This document shows positions 29,395-31,196 of a stretch of 49,943 nucleotides of DNA, in pieces. The DNA is from Limisphaerales bacterium. GTDB lineage: Bacteria > Verrucomicrobiota > Verrucomicrobiia > Limisphaerales > UBA1100. Numbering within the stretch: position 1 is the stretch's first letter; each line of letters begins with the position of its first letter. Both the position numbers and the translations under genes were made by a program. The notes under the pieces were generated by a model, which saw only the letters and a program-made list of their open reading frames with translations, did no database searches and was not told the DNA's origin. The stretch is from NCBI GenBank assembly GCA_014382585.1, contig JACNJL010000059.1, forward strand, positions 1 to 49,943, read 5' to 3'.

Positions 29395-29607
29395 ATGGCC
29401 AAGTCCACTGACAATCAGGAATTGCTGAAGCGCTCGTCGCTGTACCGCGAATTTTTGGCGGAACGCGAGGAGATCCTGCGGCACAAGTGGATTGAATCCG
29501 AGAAGGCCGGCATCGACGTCGGCTTCGAGGAGGCACTCACGGGATGGATGCTAAAGCACCGCTCCGAGTGGCGCAAACGCCGGCACGCCGCCCGGCAGTG
29601 TGTGTAA
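29395..29607 (+). CDS. small basic hypothetical protein (70 aa)
   Basis: The ATG at 29395 is preceded by GGAGAAAT, a good Shine-Dalgarno-like sequence, unlike most promoter-proximal genes here. The protein is helical and charged (SLYREFLAEREEILRHKWIE, then a Trp-containing GWMLKHRSEWRKRRHA), with no Cys pairs or membrane span. A longer frame from 29287 is not supported. The charge and Trp/Arg-rich tail would suit nucleic acid or ribosome contact, but no family is recognised. It lies just ahead of the pyr leader and may share its transcript. Confidence 0.7.
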   Translation: MAKSTDNQELLKRSSLYREFLAEREEILRHKWIESEKAGIDVGFEEALTGWMLKHRSEWRKRRHAARQCV

Positions 29608-29618
29608 ATTTTGAAGCC

Positions 29619-29727
29619 CTTTAACGCGGTCCCGCGAGGCCGCCAAGGACGATGAAGAAACGAAACGGATTTTATCCGCGTTGGATTCACGTGCAATCAA
29701 GCACGCGAAAACGGCGCGGCTTTTTTT
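29619..29727 (+). promoter_or_regulatory. PyrR-binding leader and attenuator of pyrRB
   Basis: CCTTTAACGC, then GGTC-CCGCGA-GGCC and GCCAAGGAC (29619-29650) match the PyrR anti-antiterminator: a GGUC/GGCC stem closing a six-base loop, flanked by CCUU and AAGG, as in Bacillus pyr leaders. Downstream, CCGCGTTG (29676-29683) pairs with CGGCGCGG (29712-29719), with an inner CGTGC/GCACG hairpin, followed by seven T (29721-29727). This is a rho-independent terminator that ends directly at the pyrR start codon. UMP-bound PyrR would favour termination. Confidence 0.8.
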
Positions 29728-30267
29728 ATGGCTGACCCAAACGCATCGCGCACCGTGCTCGAAGCCGACGCCCTTGCGCGCGCGTGGCGGCGCGTGGCGC
29801 ACGAGATCGCAGAAGCCCACGCGGACGGGGGCACCATTTTGCTCGTGGGCATCCAACGCGGCGGAGTCGCGCTGGCGCAGCAGCTCGGCAAAACGCTCAC
29901 CGGCATTTATGGTCAACCCGTCGCCGTGGGTTCGGTGGAGCCGGGCTTGCACCGCGATGATCTTTCCCAGCGCGGCATGGCCGAACTGCGCCCCACCGAG
30001 TTGCCCGCCGATTTGGCAAACAACGTGGTGGTGCTCATCGACGACGTCCTCAGCACCGGCCGCACCGTACGGGCCTCCATTGATGCCGTGATGGGCTTTG
30101 GCCGGCCGCAGTGCATTCGGCTGGCGGTCCTCATTGATCGCGGCCATCGCGAGCTGCCCATCCGGCCGGATTTCGTCGGCAAAAATCTCCCCACCCATCC
30201 CGACGAGCACGTGGAAGTGCGCACGGCCGATTCCGGTGCGCCCATCGCCGTCACGATTAAAAAATGA
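29728..30267 (+). CDS. pyrR: bifunctional pyr operon regulator / uracil phosphoribosyltransferase
   Basis: 179 aa. The PRPP-binding motif [20 protein letters not shown] and the N-terminal [17 protein letters not shown] are typical of PyrR, an RNA-binding attenuation protein that senses UMP and keeps weak uracil phosphoribosyltransferase activity. The start is the ATG at 29728, immediately after the T-run of the leader terminator, leaving no room for a normal ribosome site. The next gene overlaps by 4 nt (ATGA). The leader carries a recognisable PyrR binding loop, so the gene should be autoregulated. Confidence 0.93.
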
Positions 30268-31196
30268 GTTGGCATCGCAAACATCTGCTGGACATCGAAA
30301 GCCTCAGCGCCGAGGAACTCACCACCGTGCTCGACACTGCGCGTGAATTCAAAGCCGTGGGCGAGCGCGACATCAAAAAAGTCCCCGCGCTCCAAGGCAA
30401 AACGGTGGTGAACTTTTTTGTCGAACCCTCCACCCGCACGCGGGTGAGCTTTGAACTTTCCGCGAAGCGATTGAGCGCGGACATCATCAATTTTTCCGCC
30501 GACGCCTCGTCGTTCCAAAAAGGCGAGAGCCTCAAGGATACCGCGCGCACGCTCGAAGCACTCAATGCCGACATCATCGTCATCCGGCACAAGGCCGCCG
30601 GAGCGCCGCATTTCCTCGCGCGCTTTCTCAATGCCCACGTCGTCAACGCTGGCGACGGCGCGCACGAGCACCCCACACAGGCACTGCTTGACGTGTTTAC
30701 CATTCGCGAAAAGAAGGGCGACATCGCCGGACTCAATGTCACCATCCTCGGTGATATTTTGTTCAGCCGCGTGGCGCGCTCCAACATTTGGGCCCTGCGC
30801 AAGCTCGGCGCAAACGTCACCCTCTGTGGCCCAAGCACGCTCGTGCCGCGCGTCTTCGAGCAAATGGGATGTCGCGTCACTTACGATCTTGATGAAGCAT
30901 TGGCCGGCGCCGATGTCATCAACCTCCTGCGCATCCAGCACGAACGCCAGCGCAAAACGATGTTCCCCAGTATCGGCGAATACGCCCGCCTCTTCGGCCT
31001 CAACCGCGCACGCCTCGCCAAAGCGAAACCCGACGCCCTCATCATGCATCCGGGCCCAATGAACCGAGGTGTGGAAATCGAAAGCGAACTCGCCGACGGC
31101 AACCGCGCCGTGATTTTAGAACAAGTCACCAACGGCATCGCCGTCCGGATGGCGGTGTTATACTTAGTGAACGGCGGAAATGCCGAAGAGCTTTAG
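30264..31196 (+). CDS. pyrB: aspartate carbamoyltransferase catalytic subunit
   Basis: 310 aa, the usual catalytic-chain length. [14 protein letters not shown] holds the carbamoyl-phosphate STRTR motif, [14 protein letters not shown] the His/Gln contacts, and [11 protein letters not shown] the aspartate loop. It condenses carbamoyl phosphate with aspartate, the first committed step of pyrimidine synthesis. No pyrI regulatory chain or pyrC follows; the next genes are on the opposite strand. Expression is expected to follow the pyrR leader, with which it shares an overlapping start. Confidence 0.96.

Follow-up and report, generated by a model that had tools for sequence, protein, structure and literature searches.

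A candidate PyrR-gated, ribosome-dependent attenuator in the pyr leader of a Limisphaerales bacterium

Introduction

PyrR is the textbook case of an attenuator operated by a pure RNA switch. The pyr leader studied here, which belongs to a 49,943-nucleotide stretch of DNA from a Limisphaerales bacterium (the window), raises the question of how such control is achieved when the T-run of the terminator ends exactly where pyrR begins, and of how pyrR is translated at all, since no Shine-Dalgarno sequence is found within 17 nt of its ATG at 29728. A preliminary description of the sequence had proposed that a single terminator hairpin touching the start codon serves PyrR in controlling both transcription and translation. 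We have analyzed the leader in the window and in its relatives, and profile matches place pyrR and then pyrB on the + strand, as follows:

29395–29607, + strand: upstream gene of 70 amino acids, resembling the C-terminal end of DUF4032 (PF13224, 20.9 bits, below the cut-off)
29728–30267, + strand: pyrR (NF003549, 195 bits, cut-off 138)
30264–31196, + strand: pyrB (NF002032, 417 bits), sharing 4 nt (ATGA) with pyrR

Results and Discussion

The PyrR-binding hairpin

Judged by every sequence feature that we tested, the element lying ahead of pyrR is a PyrR-binding hairpin:

29617–29648, + strand: predicted PyrR-binding hairpin, with a CCUU/AAGG lower stem and GCGGUC-CCGCGA-GGCCGC, covarying

In the window its letters are CC(C)UUUAACGCGGUC-CCGCGA-GGCCGCCAAGG, and it comprises the UCC.G.GAGG core, a six-base loop, the CCUU/AAGG lower stem and a covarying upper stem. 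It precedes a pyr operon, and PyrR is encoded in the same genome. An Rfam scan at the gathering threshold gave no match, and a search by E-value then aligned RF00515 to positions 29614–29729 at 42.1 bits (E = 3e-4), which falls short of the gathering score of 54. A covariance model trained on 52 related hairpins, that of the window among them, retrieved the window hairpin as its sole site in the 3.7-Mb genome (51.1 bits). The loop and the lower stem are kept nearly letter for letter in relatives and the upper stem covaries, both sides having changed in 36 cells compared with 9 in shuffles. Indeed, the hairpin had already been recognized in the preliminary description from GGUC, a six-base loop and GGCC flanked by CCUU/AAGG, and the covariation analysis which was there proposed as a check upholds it.

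The hairpin starts about 10 nt past the end of the 70-residue gene (29607). Ends related to this gene (ESEK..DIGFE.AL..WI.KHRS.WR) precede the PyrR hairpin in many relatives, which suggests that the leader may be intercistronic, and the upstream gene is possibly co-transcribed with it. A promoter scan found no sigma-70 promoter.

A leader reading frame with its predicted Shine-Dalgarno inside the hairpin

The first Shine-Dalgarno of the operon, as predicted from its position, lies inside the PyrR hairpin and belongs to a short leader reading frame that the preliminary description had missed:

29645–29649, + strand: leader Shine-Dalgarno AAGGA, whose AAGG forms the 3' side of the hairpin lower stem
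29652–29735, + strand: leader ORF of 27 codons, overlapping pyrR by 8 nt (ATGGCTGA)
29676–29727, + strand: predicted intrinsic terminator, with its stem at 29676–29719 and its T run at 29721–29727

The AAGG of the hairpin is followed by A, CG and then the ATG at 29652. The frame thereafter spans the whole terminator, including the T-run, which is read as Phe-Phe-Tyr, and stops at the TGA at 29733–29735, so that ATGGCTGA is common to the leader and to pyrR. The pyrR and pyrB genes in turn overlap by ATGA at 30264–30267, and the leader, pyrR and pyrB would thus form a single chain of stop-start overlaps.

We have drawn pyrR loci from genomes of the order (245), the family (20) and the phylum (288), as well as from public contigs, and a search with the hairpin pattern yielded 87 distinct leaders of pyrR, spread over 27 families within the order of the window. 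In 85 of the 87, AAGG is followed by an ATG at a distance of 1–10 nt, while dinucleotide shuffles gave 8.2 (maximum 19 in 300 runs). In 72/87 leaders the frame ends between −10 and +30 nt relative to the start of pyrR, against 2.3 in shuffles (maximum 7), and even when the leader ATG was kept and only the rest was shuffled, the corresponding value was 46, with a maximum of 57 in 300 runs. In-frame stops are depleted tenfold, amounting to 0.5% of triplets in the leader frame and to 5.1% and 1.5% in the other two. The overlap is exactly 8 nt in 45 of the 87 leaders; this is partly favoured by pyrR's own codons, as Met-Pro/Ser/Ala-Glu/Asp gives ATGNCTGA, and it is for this reason that weight attaches to the second null model and to families whose overlap differs. 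Eleven further loci were later found with the hairpin covariance model, having been missed by the pattern and thus unused in defining the rule: in all 11 a start codon lies 3–7 nt past the hairpin, and the leader stops close to where pyrR starts.

A functional leader peptide was considered and rejected: its sequence is not conserved, and the variable codons of five close relatives are mostly non-synonymous. The peptide has no Pfam match, and no regulatory codon run in the style of amino-acid attenuators was seen in the leaders. The evidence thus speaks for translation and not for the peptide.

Some leaders depart from the common arrangement. In a close relative of the window (L001, identical to L090), an extra T in the terminator run makes the leader frame run 364 nt into pyrR, which may be a true exception, but may also reflect an error of sequencing or mark a site of slippage. 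In four others (L110, L145, L091 and L135) the leader start is in frame with pyrR without an intervening stop, and this may correspond to an N-terminal extension of PyrR or to a reversion to direct translational control. Three (L100, L136 and L142) have 6-codon leaders (MKIVSL, MKIVII) with the stop just ahead of the terminator, perhaps a variant form where the ribosome is held on the stop codon, and L134 lacks a leader ORF.

The 8-nt overlap would explain how pyrR is started without a Shine-Dalgarno, a question that the preliminary description had raised. However, the Shine-Dalgarno is also absent in 43 of 47 relatives lacking the hairpin, a few of which carry a hairpin missed by the pattern; coupling is therefore not strictly needed for the pyrR start, and we have discarded this absence as a proof of coupling. 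One family of the order (f87, with L054, L058, L061, L067 and others) has pyrR with neither a detectable PyrR hairpin nor a Shine-Dalgarno.

Arrangements outside the order

When 188 genomes of the class were searched with the hairpin covariance model, hairpins came to light in other families. At 22 loci of other orders the first start codon past AAGG is in frame with pyrR, and by its placement AAGG is in these loci pyrR's own Shine-Dalgarno, with the same spacing as that of the leader, which argues that the motif works as a ribosome site masked by PyrR. One of the 22 (L229) is also readable as being of the leader type. Loci in which the first start codon opens a leader were also encountered outside the order: in families f125, f127, f128 and f129, eight of the nine leader-type loci have a 4-nt ATGA/GTGA overlap between leader and pyrR, and in a tenth locus (family f6) a frame of 2 codons precedes a start codon that serves pyrR directly. 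The same arrangement is thus built from another sequence and another overlap, and the stop-start contact looks selected.

The terminator

The composite terminator of the preliminary description is also substantiated. Its stem amounts to −26.2 kcal/mol compared with −13.7 kcal/mol in shuffles (z = −4.95), and double compensatory changes are observed at five stem pairs among seven terminators of the window's family, these being restricted to sequences of equal length since MAFFT misplaced those of unequal length. A hairpin followed by a T-run is present in 60 of the 87 leaders under a strict search. At the 3' edge of the window terminator, C 29720 is followed by T7 (29721–29727) and by the ATG at 29728–29730, so that the last T and the start codon are exactly where they had been placed. 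Folding 29600–29760 as a single piece, which had also been proposed as a check, gave nothing better than shuffles (z = −0.50), because alternative states mix in the whole piece; the separate pieces are informative.

The contact between the T-run and the ATG, which had been put forward as a device, is rejected as a conserved feature. It occurs in 32 leaders, whereas in many relatives the T-run lies 12–241 nt from the pyrR start, the total range being 0–241 nt, with the leader ORF and its overlap with pyrR kept. In fact, the overlap persists where the terminator is distant from pyrR or absent, and is therefore no by-product of the T-run. The notion that the terminated state buries the pyrR start is likewise limited, as a transcript ended in the U-run lacks the pyrR ATG; such burial is conceivable for read-through mRNA only.

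A proposed mechanism

The hairpin and the terminator covary, and the leader ORF has a conserved geometry of start and stop. We consider that a PyrR-gated, ribosome-dependent attenuator is the best explanation, with a probability of roughly three in four. At low UMP, PyrR would be off the RNA and a 30S subunit would bind AAGGA at 29645; translation of the 27 leader codons across 29676–29719 would then keep the terminator unfolded and transcription would go on, and the ribosome halting at the UGA at 29733–29735 would re-initiate at the overlapping pyrR AUG at 29728. At high UMP, UMP-bound PyrR would stabilize 29617–29648, the CCUU of the lower stem would pair with the AAGG of the leader and occlude its start, and, the leader being untranslated, the terminator would fold and RNA polymerase would halt in the U-run just ahead of pyrR. 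Any RNA reading through under repression would have no ribosome to pass to pyrR. Control of both transcription and translation, as proposed in the preliminary description, thus probably stands, although by a different route, as the translated target would be the leader ORF. Among the exceptional leaders, L001, L110, L145, the three of 6 codons and L134 speak against this explanation.

Published work lends support of a general kind. Terminators closely behind or inside a gene are suppressed by ribosomes, but in E. coli this suppression is poor for terminators located in the initial 100 bp of a coding region (PMC4824070). Since the terminator starts only 24 nt past the leader AUG, the timing would need help, perhaps from pausing, and U runs of four or more ahead of the terminator could be pause sites. 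In the window there is one such run:

29670–29673, + strand: U tract, possible RNA polymerase pause site, in view of the U-run enrichment in related leaders

Attenuation of pyrBI requires translation of its leader (PMC5021804), and translation is coupled by short overlaps (PMC6728339, PMC10666635).

As a more speculative extension, which we hold as doubtful, the Verrucomicrobiae may contain a class-wide series in which PyrR masks the ribosome site of pyrR directly in some orders, whereas in others a leader ORF and a terminator lie between this site and pyrR, the latter form being a three-input switch. If so, UMP would be read by PyrR-gated leader initiation, UTP by pausing at U tracts, and translation by stop-start coupling.

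Alternative explanations

One alternative would have control purely translational, with PyrR blocking the leader start, a hairpin hiding pyrR until the leader is translated, and termination playing a minor role. This fits several leaders that keep the ORF and the overlap without a T-run (L052, L059 and L064), as well as the direct AAGG-pyrR arrangement of other orders. Nevertheless, the high frequency of terminators in the strict search, and the strong terminator of the window with its perfect T7, argue that termination is not minor, and we regard this explanation as unlikely.

A second possibility is an attenuator of the Bacillus type, in which the leader ORF would be irrelevant and an antiterminator would compete with the PyrR hairpin and the terminator. 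The antiterminator search that had been suggested earlier does identify a pairing in the window:

29620–29629, + strand: possible antiterminator 5' strand UUUAACGCGG, pairing with 29676–29685 CCGCGUUGGA

Its ten pairs amount to −14.7 kcal/mol and appear in the minimum free energy fold when the RNA is cut off at 29690, with the 3' arm of the terminator still to come, and the RF00515 alignment spans the whole element. However, this partial fold is no better than shuffles (z = −0.96), and the pairing is not conserved across the order: when the window's family is left out, cognate arms average −6.27 and non-cognate arms −6.18 kcal/mol (p = 0.92), the comparison over all leaders giving p = 0.14. 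Within the window's family, three leaders (L012, L013 and L083) have largely lost the antiterminator while their terminators are kept and covary, and the compensatory changes which keep the terminator stem break the antiterminator pairing. We have thus rejected the antiterminator as a general switch on the cognate/non-cognate comparison, and as the statistics of the ORF would also be left unexplained, a Bacillus-type mechanism seems to us quite improbable.

A third explanation invokes control as in pyrBI, where UTP-sensitive pausing at U tracts would set the catching-up of the leader ribosome, the PyrR hairpin being an extra or a relic. The leader ORF spans the terminator as it does in pyrBI, and U runs of at least four between the leader AUG and the terminator occur in 22/60 leaders from 11 families, compared with 4 by simple shuffling. 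Against this, most leaders have no U tract and AAAA runs are also somewhat enriched, whereas the near-invariant loop and lower stem, together with the covarying upper stem, are unlike a relic; we thus give this explanation little credit. Finally, that the leader ORF is open by chance can hardly be sustained, as the poor conservation of its peptide and its mostly non-synonymous codon changes are outweighed by a start proximity, a stop position and a stop depletion far beyond shuffles, by the recurrence of the pattern across 27 families as well as beyond the order, and by its correct prediction at all the new loci.

Comparison with known systems

The comparative evidence, drawn from dozens of families, favours an attenuator in which PyrR would control a ribosome and the ribosome would control both the terminator and the pyrR start. 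To our knowledge, ribosome-dependent PyrR attenuation has so far been proposed for one Thermus operon only, and the present data give broad sequence support to this idea. The presence of both architectures within one class makes it possible to study how translational repression passes into attenuation, and the geometry of the leader supplies the exact mutations for testing it.

In E. coli, pyrBI control is not known to involve PyrR and senses UTP by pausing. The leader ORF (pyrL) runs through the terminator and the ribosome prevents termination, as is proposed here, but the leader would in our case be gated at initiation by PyrR. The pyr attenuators of Bacillus subtilis (RF00515) share with the window the UCC.G.GAGG core, the CCUU/AAGG stem and an intrinsic terminator before the gene, and differ in that here the antiterminator is unconserved, the terminator lies within a leader ORF and the RF00515 score is below threshold. 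In Mycobacterium smegmatis, PyrR reportedly acts by translational repression, with no terminator and no leader ORF (Fields and Switzer 2007). The site that PyrR occludes there is the operon's first ribosome-binding site, a layout identical to that of the 22 loci in other orders of the class, whereas in the window the occluded site would belong to a leader ORF controlling the terminator at 29676–29727. On the grounds of the conserved-antiterminator test and of the presence of a terminator, respectively, the window element as predicted is of neither the Bacillus nor the mycobacterial type.

For the pyr leader of Thermus strain ZO5, a translating ribosome, and not an antiterminator, was reportedly proposed to prevent termination (Van de Casteele et al. 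1997). This leader reportedly also has a PyrR hairpin and a terminator ahead of pyrR. A search of plasmids for a Thermus pyrR found none. We know of no such Thermus-type attenuation in Verrucomicrobiota. The Thermus case is a proposal for one operon, whereas here the start and stop geometry extends over many families and includes an exact stop/start overlap. By analogy, the mode of control in the window would resemble the ribosome-dependent attenuation proposed for Thermus ZO5, crossed with translational repression of the Mycobacterium type.
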